From the NCBI GenBank assembly GCA_001443495.1, contig LDXR01000002.1, positions 62,001 through 126,000 on the forward strand: a stretch of DNA of 64,000 nucleotides, written 5' to 3'. Source of the stretch: a candidate division NC10 bacterium CSP1-5 (GTDB lineage: Bacteria > Methylomirabilota > Methylomirabilia > Methylomirabilales > CSP1-5). The notes under the pieces are model-generated. The model did not search any database. It was not told the DNA's origin and saw only the letters and a program-made list of their open reading frames with translations. The position numbers and the translations under genes were made by a program. The stretch's first letter is position 1; the number at the start of each line of letters is the position of its first letter. Of the stretch, positions 32,358 through 61,149 are shown one piece after another.

Positions 32358-32696
32358 CTACAACGCCGCCTCGCCGGTCTCCCCCGTGCGGATGCGGAGC
32401 ACCTCCTTCAAATCGTAGACGGCGATCTTGCCATCGCCGATCTTTCCGGTGCGGGCCGCCTCCATGGCCACCCTGATTGCCTCATCCGCCATCGTGTCTG
32501 ACAGGAGGACCTCGATCTTGACCTTCGGGAGGAAACTGATCGTATACTCGCTTCCTCGGTACAGCTCTGTCCGGCCGCGCTGTCGTCCGAATCCCCGGAC
32601 TTCCGTTACGGTCATCCCCTGAATCCCCATCTTGGTGAGTGCATCTTTTACGTCGTCGAGCTTGTGGGGTCGGACGATGAATTCGATCTTTTTCAC
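32358..32696 (-). CDS. glnK: P-II nitrogen regulatory protein (GlnK/GlnB)
   Basis: With the GTG at 32696 the protein has 112 residues, the standard P-II length, and starts MKKIEFIVRPHKLDDVKDAL. GGGAGG lies 8 nt before this GTG; two in-frame GTGs at 32705 and 32702 are too close to it. The T-loop has Tyr51 in TELYRGSEY, the uridylylation site, and the B- and C-loop ligands are normal (RTGKIGDGKIAV, RIRTGE). It senses ATP/ADP and 2-oxoglutarate and should gate Amt. An intrinsic terminator ends only about 20 nt before the start (see 32716-32758). Confidence 0.95.
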   Translation of the reverse strand: MKKIEFIVRPHKLDDVKDALTKMGIQGMTVTEVRGFGRQRGRTELYRGSEYTISFLPKVKIEVLLSDTMADEAIRVAMEAARTGKIGDGKIAVYDLKEVLRIRTGETGEAAL

Positions 32697-32715
32697 CGGC
32701 ACCACCTCCCTTCAT

Positions 32716-32758
32716 GGAAAAAAAGAAAAGGACGCCCCACGTTGCGTGAGGCGTCCTT
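32716..32758 (-). terminator. Intrinsic terminator in the glnK leader (candidate attenuator)
   Basis: Minus-strand hairpin with a 9-bp stem AAGGACGCC/GGCGTCCTT (32728-32758), an inner CACG/CGTG stem, and a T-rich run TTTTCTTTTTTT down to 32716. The glnK GTG follows 20 nt later, with its Shine-Dalgarno in between, so no promoter fits downstream of it. A second hairpin, CTCCGG/CCGGAG, lies just upstream at 32766-32790. Transcripts entering glnK must read through this terminator. Confidence 0.75.
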
Positions 32759-32935
32759 GCCTCTCCTCCGGTCGTCACATTGCGCCGGAGATCTGGAGCA
32801 ACCTAATTCAGGAATTGTGCCAAGAGCGACTAACTGCGACCCGGCAGCTTGAAGTATTGAAGTCTCAACGCCTTCCGCGGATTCCGACCTCGGGTCCCGT
32901 CGCCCAGCGACTTCTCCGTTCTGCTCAATGCTTCC

Positions 32936-33127
32936 TCATTTCCGATCGGGCATGCCTACACGATAGGCATTCGTAGTGGTCCCGTTCCGCTGTATGCCGG
33001 GATCGTGCGCCTCCGGTGTCTCTGCTCCGCAGAGGGGACAGAATGACATGCACAGGACGCAGAATCGCGTCTCGCAGGTCGTGCAGGTTATCGATGTCGG
33101 CTGGTGAGCTGCCTCCATGCGGTCCAT
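32936..33127 (-). CDS. Small Cys-rich (zinc-ribbon-like) protein
   Basis: 63 residues with three closely spaced Cys pairs, CTTCETRFCVLCMSFCPLCG, which would bind one or two zinc ions. The C-terminus is polar. The ATG at 33127 has GGAGGG 5 nt upstream. It lies between the ANTAR regulator and the glnK leader, on the same strand, 94 bp after the former. No known family recognised; it may be a DNA/RNA- or protein-binding mini-protein or a spurious frame with chance Cys codons. Start and reality are both uncertain. Confidence 0.45.
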   Translation of the reverse strand: MDRMEAAHQPTSITCTTCETRFCVLCMSFCPLCGAETPEAHDPGIQRNGTTTNAYRVGMPDRK

Positions 33128-33221
33128 ACGTCCCTCCATGACCCGACCATCCCTAGGCATCCGTGTCCGTCTTCCCCGGGCGCCTTCCAGTCATTATCAG
33201 CACGTTCAGGGAGCGCGAACG

Positions 33222-33827
33222 TCATCGTCCCAGATCGTTTGTCGTGCCCCTCGATACCTCCTCGGCGGTGAGGAGCGCTCGGGCGATATCGACCATGGGC
33301 CTGCGACTCTTCATGCTGGCCTTGCGGATGCGGGTAAACGCCTCGCCTTCTGCCAGCCCCTCCCGCTCCATCAGGATCCCCTTGGCTCGCTCGATCACCT
33401 TCCGCTCCTCGAGCGACCTCTTGAGGTTCGCATTCTCCGTGCGGAGGGTCATGAATTCGCGAAACCGCCCGATGGCCAATTCGATGGCCGGCTGAAGCTC
33501 GTCTTCCCGGACTGGCTTGATGAGATAGGCCATCACCCCTGCCTCGGTGGCCCGCCGAATCGTCTGCGAGTCCCGGTGGCTGGTGAGAATGACGATGGGA
33601 GTCGGGACCTCCTCCATGATCTGCCGGGCAGCGGTGATGCCGTCCACTCCCGGCAGCCCCACCGCCATGAAGATCAAGTCCGGCTGGATGGACCGGGTCA
33701 GATCCAATCCCTCTTGAGCCCCTACGGCTTCACTCACCACGGAGCATTCCAGGCCGTTGAGGGCATCCCGTAGGAGGACCCGGGACGATCTGCTGTCGTC
33801 AACGATGAGGACCCGCCGTGCTCCCAT
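33222..33827 (-). CDS. ANTAR-domain regulator with pseudo-receiver (NasT/AmiR type)
   Basis: 201 residues. Residues 1-120 form a receiver fold (RRVLIVDDSRSSRVLLRDAL, LTSHRD, AYLIKPVREDEL). The phospho-acceptor Asp is replaced by Ala (LIFMAVGLPG where LxxMDVxxPG is expected; codon GCG), while the acidic pair and Lys stay. After a short coiled coil comes an ANTAR RNA-binding domain at residues about 140-195 (VIERAKGILMEREGLAEGEA, IRKASMKSRRPMVDIA). Such proteins bind paired hairpins in leader RNA and prevent termination, often for nitrogen genes. GGAGG precedes the ATG at 33827. Natural targets in this block include the glnK leader. Confidence 0.88.
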   Translation of the reverse strand: MGARRVLIVDDSRSSRVLLRDALNGLECSVVSEAVGAQEGLDLTRSIQPDLIFMAVGLPGVDGITAARQIMEEVPTPIVILTSHRDSQTIRRATEAGVMAYLIKPVREDELQPAIELAIGRFREFMTLRTENANLKRSLEERKVIERAKGILMEREGLAEGEAFTRIRKASMKSRRPMVDIARALLTAEEVSRGTTNDLGR

Positions 33828-55418: not shown

Positions 55419-56024
55419 ATGCGGCGAGCATCGTCGCAGCCAGGACGTCAGGGCGGGGGCTGGTGCAGCTTGGCGAAATCAGATGTGCCGAAAAACAATC
55501 GGACGTTCTTTGATTCGCGCTTCGTGTGGACGGAGAAGCGGAGAGCCAACAGATTGGCCTTTATCCTCTTCTGGTCCATCGTGATGTATTACTTCTTTAA
55601 GGTGTATGTCGTGAGCGTCGGGGTTGTGACTGACATTAGCATGCACCCGACATTGCCAGAGGGGGCATATTATATGGTGAACAAGTACATCTACCGCTTT
55701 GCCCACCCTGAGCGGGGCGACATTGTGGTGTTCCAAAAGGATCGATACACCTCCGAGGAATACGTGAAGCGCGTGATCGGCCTTCCGGGCGAGACATTCT
55801 CCATACAGGGCGGCGAGATCTACATTAACGGCCGCCGGCTGGACGAACCGTACGCCGCCGGGCGAAGTCATCCCGATAGCGCTCCGCATACCATCGGGAA
55901 AGATGCCTACTTCGTCCTCGGCGACAACCGCCTGATGAGCGAAGACAGCCGCGAGTTCGGGGATGTTCTCTTCACGAATATCATGGGGAAAATTAAACCC
56001 GACCAGTTCTTTCCGTTTCGGTAG
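55419..56024 (+). CDS. lepB: Signal peptidase I, copy 1
   Basis: Serine-lysine protease that removes signal peptides. One membrane helix (LAFILFWSIVMYYFFKVYVV), catalytic Ser in TDISMHPTLPEG, catalytic Lys in YVKRVIGLPGE, and GDNRLMSEDSREFG near the end. About 201 residues from ATG 55419; another frame start (GTG near 55483) would give a shorter leader. No strong ribosome site, so the start is uncertain. Confidence 0.88.
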   Translation: MRRASSQPGRQGGGWCSLAKSDVPKNNRTFFDSRFVWTEKRRANRLAFILFWSIVMYYFFKVYVVSVGVVTDISMHPTLPEGAYYMVNKYIYRFAHPERGDIVVFQKDRYTSEEYVKRVIGLPGETFSIQGGEIYINGRRLDEPYAAGRSHPDSAPHTIGKDAYFVLGDNRLMSEDSREFGDVLFTNIMGKIKPDQFFPFR

Positions 56025-56209
56025 GCGGTACGGGGGGAGCCGCGGCCCGACCTCACGACTGGGCGGGCTGGGGGCGCGAGCAAGGCATTGCCTTCTTCCC
56101 GTGGTACAGACGACCAGATCTGGCCCAACATTTGCAAAGCCGACCTTCCTGGCAAGGAGAGAAGGGAAGACGCGGGTCGCAGAGAATCCTGTACGGCAGG
56201 GACGGGTGG

Positions 56210-56785
56210 ATGATGGCACGGACATCTTCAGGACACGTTTCGTCAGGAAAAGATAGAGCCTTTTTTAACTGGCGATACATCAGGGGTAAATACGAGAGGC
56301 GACGAGAGCACAGGCTGGCCTTTATCCTCCTCTGGTCAATCCTGCTGGCCTTTCTGTTTAGAACATTTGTCGTTACGGTCGGCGTGGTGAATGACACGAG
56401 CATGCACCCGGCGTTGGGCGAGGGGGGCTATTACTTGGTCAACAAATACATCTATCACTTTGCCCGTCCTCAGCGGGGCGACATCGTCGTCTTCCGCGTC
56501 GGGCAATATGACACGGAGGAGCAGGTCAAGCGCATCATCGGGCTGCCGGGTGAGACGCTGCAGATCACGTCAGGCGAGGTCTACATTAACGGCCGCCGGC
56601 TGGACGAATCGTACGCCGTGGGTGCCACCTACCCCGATTTCGGGCCGACCACCGTTGAGGAAGACTCCTACTTCGTCCTCGGGGACACGCGATGGGTGCG
56701 GGAGGACAGCCGCGATTTTGGCGCTGTCCCGCTGAAGAACATCGTGGGCAAGGTGAAACCGGGCGAGTTTTTCCCATTCCGCTAA
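56210..56785 (+). CDS. lepB: Signal peptidase I, copy 2
   Basis: Paralogue of the preceding gene: the helix LAFILLWSILLAFLFRTFVV, Ser in NDTSMHPALGEG, Lys in QVKRIIGLPGE, GEVYINGRRLDESYAVGA. The usual GDN of the last motif is GDT here (GDTRWVREDSRDFG). 191 residues. Two adjacent ATGs at 56210 and 56213 follow AGGGACGGGTGG. The two genes lie 185 bp apart in tandem and arose by duplication; they have since diverged. Confidence 0.87.
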   Translation: MMARTSSGHVSSGKDRAFFNWRYIRGKYERRREHRLAFILLWSILLAFLFRTFVVTVGVVNDTSMHPALGEGGYYLVNKYIYHFARPQRGDIVVFRVGQYDTEEQVKRIIGLPGETLQITSGEVYINGRRLDESYAVGATYPDFGPTTVEEDSYFVLGDTRWVREDSRDFGAVPLKNIVGKVKPGEFFPFR

Positions 56786-58401: not shown

Positions 58402-58740
58402 ATGGCGTATTACTTGGTTCAGGCGAGGCCAAGGCAAGAGCGGCTCAGGGAGCTGGAGAAGCTGCTGGCGGAGCGGGCCTTTGACGGGCTGCGGCCCTTC
58501 GGGCAAGCGCTGAGCGCGGGTCTCGCTGGCGCGCGGGTGGGTGCCGAAGGACTCGCCCTCTGGGAGGAGGAGGACTACTGTTCACCACCGCTCGCTATGG
58601 AGCGGGCCGCGGTGCTCGACAGCTATTTTGACGATATCCAGGTCGAGGCGGTCATGCCTGGCGAGGGGTGGAGTCGCATTCAGGAGATGCCGCGGCTTTT
58701 CCCCGCTCTCGCTTTACGGGGGTTCAGTACTGAGGACTGA
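58402..58740 (+). CDS. Small soluble protein of unknown function
   Basis: 112 residues beginning MAYYLVQARPRQERLRELEK, with an acidic WEEEDYCSPPLAMERAAVLD in the middle. No signal, no membrane helix, one Cys. It looks like a conserved small protein, but I cannot name a family. Its last codons and stop (58729-58740) fall inside a tandem 7-bp repeat, so the C-terminus is set by the repeat. Confidence 0.65.
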   Translation: MAYYLVQARPRQERLRELEKLLAERAFDGLRPFGQALSAGLAGARVGAEGLALWEEEDYCSPPLAMERAAVLDSYFDDIQVEAVMPGEGWSRIQEMPRLFPALALRGFSTED

Positions 58741-58770
58741 GGGCTGAGGACTGAGGGCTGAGGACTGAGC
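58729..58770. repeat. Tandem 7-bp repeat
   Basis: Six heptamers: ACTGAGG, ACTGAGG, GCTGAGG, ACTGAGG, GCTGAGG, ACTGAGC. The stop codon of the preceding gene lies within it. Separates two convergent genes. Confidence 0.85.
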
Positions 58771-58793
58771 ACTGGCTAGCGCTTCGGGGATTC

Positions 58794-59172: not shown

Positions 59173-59289
59173 ATGCCCAAAGCCATCTGGAACGGAGCCG
59201 TCCTGGCCAAGAGTGACCGAGCAGTCAATGCGCGCGGGGTCGTGGTACCCCGGATGGATTCCCCGAGCGGAGAGCAATCTTTTGCTTGA
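59173..59289 (+). pseudogene. 5' remnant of a DUF427 gene
   Basis: A 38-codon frame behind an excellent GGGAGGAAGTG reads MPKAIWNGAVLAKSDRAV, the usual start of DUF427 proteins, then NARGVVVPRMDSPSGEQSFA, which is unrelated, and stops. The conserved YFPxE core is gone. The stop TGA is part of the TTGACA at 59286. Confidence 0.6.
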
Positions 59290-59315
59290 CAGGTAACGCG
59301 GGTTCTTGGCAAAAT
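59286..59315 (+). promoter_or_regulatory. Candidate promoter of non-coding transcript A
   Basis: TTGACA (59286-59291), 18-nt spacer, CAAAAT (59310-59315). Start near 59322. A 19-bp sequence AAAATCATGTTTGATTTCG overlapping the -10 recurs at 59561 with two changes. Confidence 0.5.
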
Positions 59316-59321
59316 CATGTT

Positions 59322-59507
59322 TGATTTCGCCGCCAAAAGGCCTTCGTGCAGGAACCTGTGGAGGAGGGAGCCGCTCCTTCCCCCGGGTAAGAAAGAAATG
59401 AGCTGCGTGAAGATAGCCTGCGGCCCAGGCGTAGCGCATTGGGTTGCGTGGCGGGCATTTAAATGGCCCTCTCGGCGGAGCATGGCCCGAGAGGGCGTTT
59501 TCTTTTT
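59322..59507 (+). ncRNA. Candidate non-coding transcript A (about 186 nt)
   Basis: Lies between a promoter (59286-59315) and a strong intrinsic terminator (59466-59507: stem GCCCTCTCGG/CCGAGAGGGC, then GTTTTCTTTTT). It contains several local hairpins (GCAGGAACCTGT; GGAGC-C-GCTCC; GCCTGCGGCCCAGGC) and a possible end-to-end pairing of CCGCCA near the 5' end with TGGCGG before the terminator. No frame in it looks coding. The identity is unknown; it could be a small RNA or a riboswitch-like leader. Confidence 0.45.
59466..59507 (+). terminator. Rho-independent terminator A
   Basis: 10-bp stem GCCCTCTCGG/CCGAGAGGGC with an 11-nt loop, followed by GTTTTCTTTTT. Confidence 0.85.
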
Positions 59508-59615
59508 CCGACAGGGACTTTTCCGGATTCCTACACAACAGAGGCTCGTGACTAATTAAGAAAATCCCGTTTGATTTCGAGGCAACGGCCAAACCGCTTA
59601 AAGGAGAGTAGAGCG

Positions 59616-59696
59616 ATGGGACCCCGGGACTTCTACAAGCTTCTTTTGTCGTCGGACCGGTGGCGCGGACAGTTTGAATTTGAAATTACCCCTTGA
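59616..59696 (+). CDS. Small ORF of 26 codons (possible leader peptide)
   Basis: AAAGGAGAG lies 7 nt before the ATG. The peptide reads MGPRDFYKLLLSSDRWRGQF and ends FEITP. Its stop TGA is part of the -35 TTGACA of the next promoter, as with the remnant at 59173. No known family. Could be a true micro-protein or the start of another lost gene. Confidence 0.4.
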   Translation: MGPRDFYKLLLSSDRWRGQFEFEITP

Positions 59697-59721
59697 CACG
59701 GGGCGGAGGCTTTGCTACAGT
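59693..59721 (+). promoter_or_regulatory. Sigma-70 promoter of transcript B
   Basis: TTGACA (59693-59698), 17-nt spacer, TACAGT (59716-59721). Start near 59728. The best promoter in the region. Confidence 0.75.
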
Positions 59722-59727
59722 GCCGAT

Positions 59728-59842
59728 CATATACTGGCTTTCAATCCTAGGATCTGCGGACGGACCCAGGGCCGGTCCCGTCCCCGGAGGCCAAGGCGCC
59801 TCAAGGAGGAATTAGGTTCCTCCGCGAGGCGTTTTTATTTTT
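59728..59842 (+). ncRNA. Candidate non-coding transcript B or regulator leader (about 115 nt)
   Basis: Runs from the promoter at 59693-59721 to the terminator at 59797-59842. A first stem-loop (GGACGG/CCGTCC) is followed by the two-part terminator stem. The response-regulator gene starts 73 nt after the terminator, so this may be an attenuated leader for that gene rather than a free RNA. No known riboswitch class recognised. Confidence 0.45.
59797..59842 (+). terminator. Rho-independent terminator B
   Basis: Outer stem CGCCTC/GAGGCG and inner stem AGGAGGAA/TTCCTCC around a 5-nt loop, followed by TTTTTATTTTT. Confidence 0.85.
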
Positions 59843-59914
59843 CGGATCGGAAGATCCTAGCCAGAAGATGGAGCCCAAGAGCCGTGAGCTGGGGCCCGTT
59901 TGAAGGTCCATGAG

Positions 59915-60592
59915 ATGAGGGCGCAGGAAGACGTTATTCGTATCCTTATCATTCACCGCAGTCGTCTGATTCGGGAGGGTTTCGCCTTTGTCTTGGACCA
60001 CCAAGAGTCCATATCCGTGATTGGCAGCGTTGCCGGGGTCGGCGAAGTCGTCGGTGATCTGGAGCGGCTTCGCCCGGCTGTCATCCTCCTGGATCTCTGC
60101 CTCCCGGACCGGGGTGGTCTGAGAGACGCGCAATGGATCCGGGAGGTCCTTCCTGGAGCCAAGATTCTGATGACAGGGCTCAGCGAATTGGAATCCGATG
60201 TTCTGGCGTGCTTCGAAGCAGGGGCAGCAGGGTATCTTCCCCAGGAAGCATCACTGGAGGAGCTGCTGAATAGCATTCAGGCGGTAGCAGCGGGAGAGGT
60301 TCTCTGTTCACCCAAGGTCACGGCTTTGCTCGTCTCCCGGATTGCCGAGGCTAGTCGTGAAAGGGAGCTGCGTCGCGTCCAGGGTCTGCCGAACCTCACC
60401 CGTCGCGAGCTCGAGATCATCGCCCTCGTTGAGGAGGGATTAAGTAACAAAGAAATCGCTGTCCGCTTAGAGATAGAAATCCCGACGGTCAAGACCCATA
60501 TCCATAACATTCTGGAAAAGCTACAGCTTGATGGCCGGCGCGAAGCCGCACAGTATGTGAGAGAGTGGGGTTTGCTGAGGAGTTCGCCATGA
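59915..60592 (+). CDS. LuxR/NarL-type response regulator with atypical receiver
   Basis: 225 residues. Receiver at 1-125, LuxR-type helix-turn-helix at about 160-222 (NLTRRELEIIALVEEGLSNK, VKTHIHNILEKLQLDGR). In the receiver the phospho-acceptor Asp is present (VILLDLCLPD) but the acidic pair is replaced by His-Arg (ILIIHRSRL) and the Lys by Gln (AGYLPQEAS), so normal phosphorylation is doubtful. Start ATG 59915 with GAAGGT upstream. No sensor kinase is seen nearby. It lies downstream of transcript B. Confidence 0.88.
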   Translation: MRAQEDVIRILIIHRSRLIREGFAFVLDHQESISVIGSVAGVGEVVGDLERLRPAVILLDLCLPDRGGLRDAQWIREVLPGAKILMTGLSELESDVLACFEAGAAGYLPQEASLEELLNSIQAVAAGEVLCSPKVTALLVSRIAEASRERELRRVQGLPNLTRRELEIIALVEEGLSNKEIAVRLEIEIPTVKTHIHNILEKLQLDGRREAAQYVREWGLLRSSP

Positions 60593-60647
60593 GGAGTTAC
60601 GGGATGGAGTAGGAAGGATTAATCCTTTTCTGCCAAGAGGGCGCGTT

Positions 60648-60676
60648 GGGTCTACGGAGACGTAGACCCTTTTTTT
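60648..60676 (+). terminator. Rho-independent terminator after the response regulator
   Basis: Stem GGGTCTACG/CGTAGACCC with GAGA loop and seven T. A perfect palindrome AAGGATTAATCCTT lies just before it at 60614-60627. Confidence 0.88.
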
Positions 60677-60768
60677 GTGCCCGAATACATCAAATCTACA
60701 ACCCCGATCTATTGTCTTGCCTGGGCATAGTCTTTACCGTATCACGCACAGGCGGAGTGAGTGTGGCG

Positions 60769-61149
60769 ATGAAGCTCAAGATTCTCTTAGCAAATCGTCC
60801 TCGAATGTTGCGTGAAATGGTGAGGAAGATCATCGAGGACGAGCAAGACATGGAGGTGGTGGGGGAGGTCTTGGCTCCGGTGGATCTTCTCGTCGCTGTG
60901 AGAGAAACAAGGGCGGACGCGGTTATTCTGACCATGAGGGGTTCTGAGGAGCCGGGCATTTGTAGTCACCTGCTCGCCGAGTATCCGGACCTCACGATCC
61001 TCGGTTTGGCATTTGAGGGTCAAAAGGCCTTTGTGAAGCAACTGCGTCCCCGGCGCGAAGAGATCGCTGACCCCACGGGGGCGAAGATCCTCAGCGCCCT
61101 TCGTAATGCCATCCGGGGCCCGTGGTTATCGGTTGATAAGGTTCAATGA
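60769..61149 (+). CDS. Degenerate single-domain receiver protein
   Basis: 126 residues with the pattern of a receiver domain (KLKILLANRPRMLREMVRKI, then MEVVGEVLAPVDLLVAV) but none of the active-site residues: the acidic pair is Ala-Asn, the phospho-acceptor Asp is Thr (AVILTMRGSEEPG), and the Lys is absent. No output domain. It may bind a partner constitutively. ATG at 60769 with GGCGGAGT upstream. The stop overlaps the next gene (ATGA), so the two are translated together. Confidence 0.75.
   Translation: MKLKILLANRPRMLREMVRKIIEDEQDMEVVGEVLAPVDLLVAVRETRADAVILTMRGSEEPGICSHLLAEYPDLTILGLAFEGQKAFVKQLRPRREEIADPTGAKILSALRNAIRGPWLSVDKVQ

Follow-up and report, generated by a model that had tools for sequence, protein, structure and literature searches.

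ANTAR-target attenuators (EutV/eut, NasR, AmiR, and NasT) place two hairpins before an intrinsic terminator, the second of them (P2) sharing the 5′ arm of the terminator, and the targets carry a dual hexaloop with A at position 1 and G at position 4 of the loops (PMC3369931, PMC8934654). Nitrogen-related targets of ANTAR proteins are also known, as in the case of NasT (PMC6759348). Leaders of the c-di-GMP-I class (RF01051), on their part, are scattered in numerous copies over a genome, upstream of genes of varied function, and end in an intrinsic terminator.

A locus comparable to both types of leader is found in the genome of the uncultured NC10 bacterium CSP1-5 (2.77 Mb in 40 contigs; coded G000 here, with relatives coded G001, G002, etc., and loci given L001-type labels). 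NC10 bacteria, some of which are nitrite-driven methane oxidizers, are hard to grow, and no paper on RNA regulation in them was found in the literature searched. The stretch studied, hereafter the window, comprises 64,000 nucleotides of contig C2, where two promoter-RNA-terminator leaders lie in series upstream of a receiver and LuxR (GerE) regulator gene (59915..60592, + strand, assigned with Pfam), the presumed read-through target. A previous sequence-only reading had described this anatomy, that is, a promoter, an untranslated RNA, and a terminator, present twice before an atypical receiver gene, and it is borne out as sequence. The promoter-like site of unit 1 (TTGACA-18-CAAAAT, 59286..59315, +) and the promoter of unit 2 (TTGACA-17-TACAGT, 59693..59721, +) are the sole + strand promoter matches within 3.5 kb, and strong hairpins followed by T-runs form the terminators of unit 1 (59466-59507, +, with the conserved loop CGGAGCATGG) and unit 2 (59794-59838, +). 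The explanation that we favor, with moderate confidence, is that two unrelated transcription-attenuation leaders would act in series before the receiver/LuxR gene. The earlier idea that the leaders are the regulatory input of this gene is probably right.

The regulator gene belongs to a pair of adjoining receiver-type genes (59915-61149, +), both atypical-looking: the first presents IIHRS in place of the expected acidic pair, and the second has no Pfam match and is without the usual phosphoacceptor motif. The pair is common to the paralogs in G000 (contig C6) and G003, and a further terminator (60648-60669, +) separates the two genes here, in the paralog, and in G003. Upstream of the locus, a tandem 14-bp repeat (CTGAGGACTGAGGG, 58730-58774, +) has similar repeats at many places of the genus and also in G007, outside of it. 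Also, two similar adjoining genes (55500-56785, +) resemble, as judged by their translations only, type I signal peptidases (PTLPEGAYYMVNKYIYRFAHPERGDIVVF and similar).

Two dispersed RNA families at one locus

Both terminator regions matched several further places in the same genome and genus, and these places were read as two distinct repeated promoter/RNA/terminator arrangements, named family A (unit 1) and family B (unit 2). A covariance model was built for each, R1 from 11 family A copies with unit 1 left out and R2 from 7 family B copies with unit 2 left out. R1 matches the RNA of unit 1 (59391..59511, +) with 63.2 bits (E 4e-14 in the window) and R2 matches that of unit 2 (59748..59845, +) with 68.6 bits (E 7e-17), scores made up mostly of the terminators, through which the model seeds were located. 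Without the terminator, unit 1 gives 8.1 bits (E 0.0065 in 165 bases) with its register unchanged, and unit 2 gives 4.4 bits. Moreover, R1 is silent at unit 2 and R2 is silent at unit 1, and each RNA has closer relatives elsewhere than the other unit. The models place the two units in two different dispersed RNA families, and the duplication of one module, as the sequence-only reading had it, is rejected on these mutually exclusive matches. The covariance search suggested there did recover both RNAs, although by two separate models, and the same plan, when looked for elsewhere in the genome and in relatives, is found in repeated promoter/RNA/terminator copies of two families.

Neither the family A nor the family B region is credibly matched by Rfam 15, even at E-values up to 1, and the gathering score is reached in the window by tRNAs only; known Rfam families were discarded for either unit. 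The claim that no described element has this plan stands for unit 1, for whose kind no Rfam 15 family and no paper in the literature searched were found, but it fails for unit 2, whose anatomy is that of the ANTAR-target attenuators.

The two units do share a 19-bp sequence with two changes (17 of 19 positions identical), as had been noticed. The first copy (59311..59329, +) is an imperfect inverted repeat, AAATCA..TGATTT, that overlaps the −10 box, and the second lies at 59561..59579 (+). Without mismatch, the pattern is present only at these two places of the whole genome, and it was not found upstream of the paralogous regulator genes, for which reasons a role as a genome-wide operator was rejected.

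Unit 2 and the ANTAR-type attenuators

In unit 2, folding places a hairpin P1 at 59758..59783 (+), with the 7-nt loop CAGGGCC (C+AGGGCC) and a linker of 3 nt to its lower stem and 8 nt to its upper one, followed by the putative antiterminator P2, GAGGC[CAAGGC]GCCTC, at 59787..59802 (+). The 3′ arm of P2 is part of the terminator 5′ arm, the overlap expected of an ANTAR target. When the RNA is folded without the terminator 3′ arm, P1 and P2 are obtained, with a stability not above that of shuffles, and when it is folded in full, the terminator is formed. The P2 loop carries the expected G at position 4, as do 12 of 12 aligned family B copies, and its position 1 is C, not A. The likeness of family B to the described attenuators resides in the two hairpins before an intrinsic terminator, in the P2 that shares the terminator 5′ arm, in G4 of the loop, and in the association with REC-ANTAR genes. 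However, family B proper has a P2 loop CNNGRC, with C at position 1, its P1 loop is often of 7 nt or larger, only a short linker of 3 nt leads to the lower stem of P1, and at several loci the −35 box of its promoter shares bases with the stop codon of the ANTAR gene.

Regarding the associated genes, ANTAR genes are rare: 10 were found in 11 genomes (0–2 per genome), and nine of them are followed by an R2 match of 18–95 bits, the exception being that of G001. These nine comprise two genes in the host and one each in G002, G003, G004, and G006, all of the genus, together with two in G009 and one in G010, from other families of the order. Several of the ANTAR-linked matches are weak (18–31 bits), and these leaders match R2 because in each of them the 5′ arm of the terminator doubles as the 3′ arm of a hairpin; the hairpin loops of the ANTAR-linked leaders are of 6–7 nt. 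For example, the hairpin in G004 is GAGGC[AAGGGC]GCCTC, and G009 shows a textbook dual hexaloop, GGTGGAC[AACGCG]GTCCACC and CAGGC[ATAGGC]GCCTG, with A1 and G4 in both loops. A scan for a dual hexaloop plus terminator found none in ten shuffled windows. R2 also matches G025 (L101), where no ANTAR gene visibly adjoins, and the genes behind strong family B copies are often signaling genes (LuxR, PilZ, and PAS).

Both REC-ANTAR genes of the host genome have a family B or B-like leader behind them, which is the association sought in an ANTAR system at the level of the genome. One of them (33222..33827, −; PF00072 1.7e-23, PF03861 3.2e-22) opens a segment of the window (32358-33827, −) in which an ANTAR-type attenuator is found ∼450 nt later, followed by a P-II (glnK) gene and an amtB-like gene. 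This family B-like leader (32719..32798, −, with P2 at 32748-32763) has the P2 GAGGC[AAGGAC]GCCTC, the same as in G002. Position 1 of the P2 loop is A in the glnK leader, G002, G004, and G009, in contrast to the C of family B proper. The pattern GAGGCNNNGNCGCCTC has four sites in the genome, and the unit 2 and glnK leaders account for two of these. The position of an ANTAR-linked leader before glnK and an amtB-like gene recalls the NasT-type nitrogen targets, and the segment would be a candidate for a self-contained ANTAR system for ammonium uptake in NC10.

Unit 2 itself is not adjacent to any ANTAR gene. Also, the C at loop position 1 and the 7-nt P1 loop speak against strict membership, so unit 2 is termed here ANTAR-type and the mechanism is held as likely: the receiver/LuxR gene at 59915 would be controlled by ANTAR-type antitermination through an RNA that is one loop base off the consensus. 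By default, transcripts would end at both terminators of the locus, whereas an activated REC-ANTAR protein would hold the P1 and P2 hairpins of unit 2, and since P2 occupies the terminator 5′ arm, the polymerase would read through into the gene at 59915. Perhaps unit 2 is instead a mere strong terminator and promoter, derived from the duplication of an ANTAR 3′ flank and with an inherited hairpin without function, as could be thought from the lack of an ANTAR gene at this copy and from other family B copies that retain frameshifted ANTAR tails. Nonetheless, P2 forms five of its five pairs, and the pairing of P1 is kept with bases different from those of the relatives, which makes this alternative unlikely. 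Pair changes favor the P2 and terminator helices.

The short open reading frames

Each unit is preceded by a short ORF, at 59173..59289 (+) and 59616..59696 (+; 26 codons), both with a purine-rich Shine-Dalgarno sequence and, as described earlier, with a TGA stop inside TTGACA (59286-59291 and 59693-59698). Nevertheless, they do not form a conserved element of the plan. ORF1 begins like a DUF427/NTP_transf_9 (PF04248) gene but is broken after 17 codons: its start, MPKAIWNGAVLAKSDRA, is identical at 14 of 17 positions to the N-terminus of the intact 94-residue DUF427 protein of relatives, encoded at the syntenic position in G005, G001, and G006, and the remainder is not homologous. Since DNA synteny with the relatives breaks at ∼59219 and no DUF427 match exists anywhere in the host genome, ORF1 corresponds to a degraded gene stump at the edge of a rearrangement.

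ORF2 has no Pfam match and is probably not functional. It ends in ...FEFEITP, and the REC-ANTAR genes at the family B copies of G000 (contig C3), G003 (where the gene is cut by the contig end), and G006 end in ...EEST or ...FEETP, with their TGA inside the same TTGACA as at ORF2; at two family B copies of G004, only ANTAR tails are present. This hexamer is invariant at the unit 2 promoter position in eight aligned family B copies. In this family, the repeated overlap of TGA and TTGACA is due to the stop codon of a genuine REC-ANTAR gene falling at this place, and it is not a coding design of a short ORF. The ending of ORF2 suggests an origin from the 3′ end of an ANTAR gene; however, its DNA similarity to ANTAR 3′ ends is no higher than that of shuffles and the C-terminal resemblance is not significant, so that a proven descent from an ANTAR gene was rejected. 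Both short ORFs are taken to be incidental, with no part in the mechanism.

Family A and the tandem arrangement

R1 detects 18 copies of family A in the host genome and 6–74 in six relatives of the genus, which is of the Methylomirabilis type. Among 95 genomes of the phylum, matches with E up to 1e-5 come solely from this genus and from two further families of the order, the latter with few copies, and in 84,980 species genomes, all the exact matches to the core belong to Methylomirabilota (NC10), Candidatus Methylomirabilis sp. MAG-BB-18 included. Most copies have a sigma-70 promoter whose TTGACA is ∼49 or 105–140 nt upstream of the core (an exact TTGACA in 78 of 117 copies versus 8 on the opposite strand); the core is conserved and poor in helices, and the terminator behind it keeps a conserved loop. 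Of 101 genes that come next, 79 run in the direction of the leader and 22 do not (p 1e-8). Moreover, the same gene types follow family A in different families of the order, namely a PAS-containing regulator (57–78% identity), cupin-like proteins, and a small cysteine-rich protein, and the genes behind it also include PilZ-like, receiver, PAS, and exported proteins. Together, the codirectional and partly recurring downstream genes, the promoter, the core, and the terminator indicate that family A is a cis-acting leader.

In this regard, both units could be free-standing small-RNA genes, trans-acting or protein-sponging, with incidental downstream genes. Each unit has its own promoter and terminator, some copies have no obvious gene close downstream, and an ANTAR-sequestering small RNA is known elsewhere (EutX, cited in PMC8934654). 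However, this does not agree well with downstream genes that are codirectional in the above proportion and partly orthologous across families, or with antiterminator-like strands that overlap the terminators, and we regard it as quite improbable.

With respect to structure, compensatory changes are observed in the terminator helix of family A, and the covariation of the whole structure exceeds all 500 shuffles, in an alignment that was fitted to that structure and with shuffle controls that only partly remove relatedness. A core helix, GGGGU/ACCYC, reaches moderate support once the copies of families f3 and f6 are added, with slid controls not far below it on covariation, and the proposed GGYG/CGCC antiterminator pairing is standard in 90–97% of the copies, being nearly invariant. 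Also, two core haplotypes covary outside base pairing. Family A resembles c-di-GMP-I leaders in its many copies per genome, diverse genes, and intrinsic terminator but differs in that Rfam 15 offers no match to it by sequence or by structure and that helices of its core have weak support, and RF01051 is absent from seven of seven genomes of the genus, so this riboswitch was discarded as its basis. No ANTAR hexaloops are seen by eye in family A, and G005, a genome only 88% complete, has 16 copies and no ANTAR match. A cassette or transposon origin was put aside because, although arrays exist on some contigs, the intervening genes differ. Same-strand arrays of family A leaders are found at L123 (G006:C108) and L124 (G005:C223), several of them before different exported-protein genes. 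Several family A promoters in two families of the order (L022, L016, and L025; L229, L235, and L237) are preceded by a short dispersed inverted repeat (about AGATTTGTRGTTGNAATCT).

The conserved motif SD-ATG-xxx-CCG-GGG-TRR of family A could be an ORF of four codons (M-x-P-G-stop) that, on being translated, would determine the RNA fold, making family A a leader-peptide attenuator. SD-like purines are located ∼7 nt upstream of the ATG in many copies, codon 5 is a stop in 45 of 68 motif copies, and the motif recurs in family f6. Nonetheless, 11 of the 68 have CGA or CAG in place of the stop, and the ORF is not kept in unit 1. Depletion affects not only TGG but also TAA, so that a structural constraint (columns 48-58-59-71) can explain the pattern at codon 5. 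A leader peptide seems very unlikely.

We read unit 1 as a divergent member of this leader family, which has no earlier description, and as a putative cis-acting attenuator. Its promoter-to-core distance (−105) resembles the spacing in other family A copies of the long-leader class, and a possible antiterminator, GGGC...GCCC around ATTTAAAT (59453..59469, +), overlaps the terminator 5′ arm and appears in both the minimum-energy and the centroid structure when the RNA is folded up to the terminator 3′ arm. Since its score drops to 8 bits without the terminator, unit 1 may be a decayed copy. Upon a signal, the upstream strand (GGYG in family A, GGGC here) would pair with the terminator 5′ arm, and as read-through of unit 1 would enter unit 2, the two signals could converge on one gene.

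The side-by-side arrangement recurs, since 4 of 12 strong family B copies have a family A copy no more than 700 nt away, versus 0.28 expected: this locus, C175 and C50 of G006, and C239 of G003, the other three in the order B then A. The regulator paralog in the host genome (70% identity) has its own promoter, leader, and terminator, the leader of that operon giving a weak R1 score (19.7 bits), and the ortholog in G003 has a promoter without such a leader.

In summary, unit 2 is best read as a variant of the known ANTAR attenuators, and unit 1 leads to an RNA family without earlier description, which merits follow-up more than the single locus itself. The ANTAR link offers a concrete test because there are only 0–2 ANTAR genes per genome and the ammonium operon is among the linked targets. 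For family A, we tentatively propose, as a possibility rather than an expectation, a new class of cis-acting leaders of Methylomirabilota, in which one signal (a ligand, a protein, or the four-codon ORF) would control dozens of signaling and export genes per genome and the tandem with family B would add ANTAR control. An orphan leader family with up to ∼70 copies in one genome would be an attenuation regulon of unusual size, and its signal would be a candidate for one not yet described as sensed in this way.
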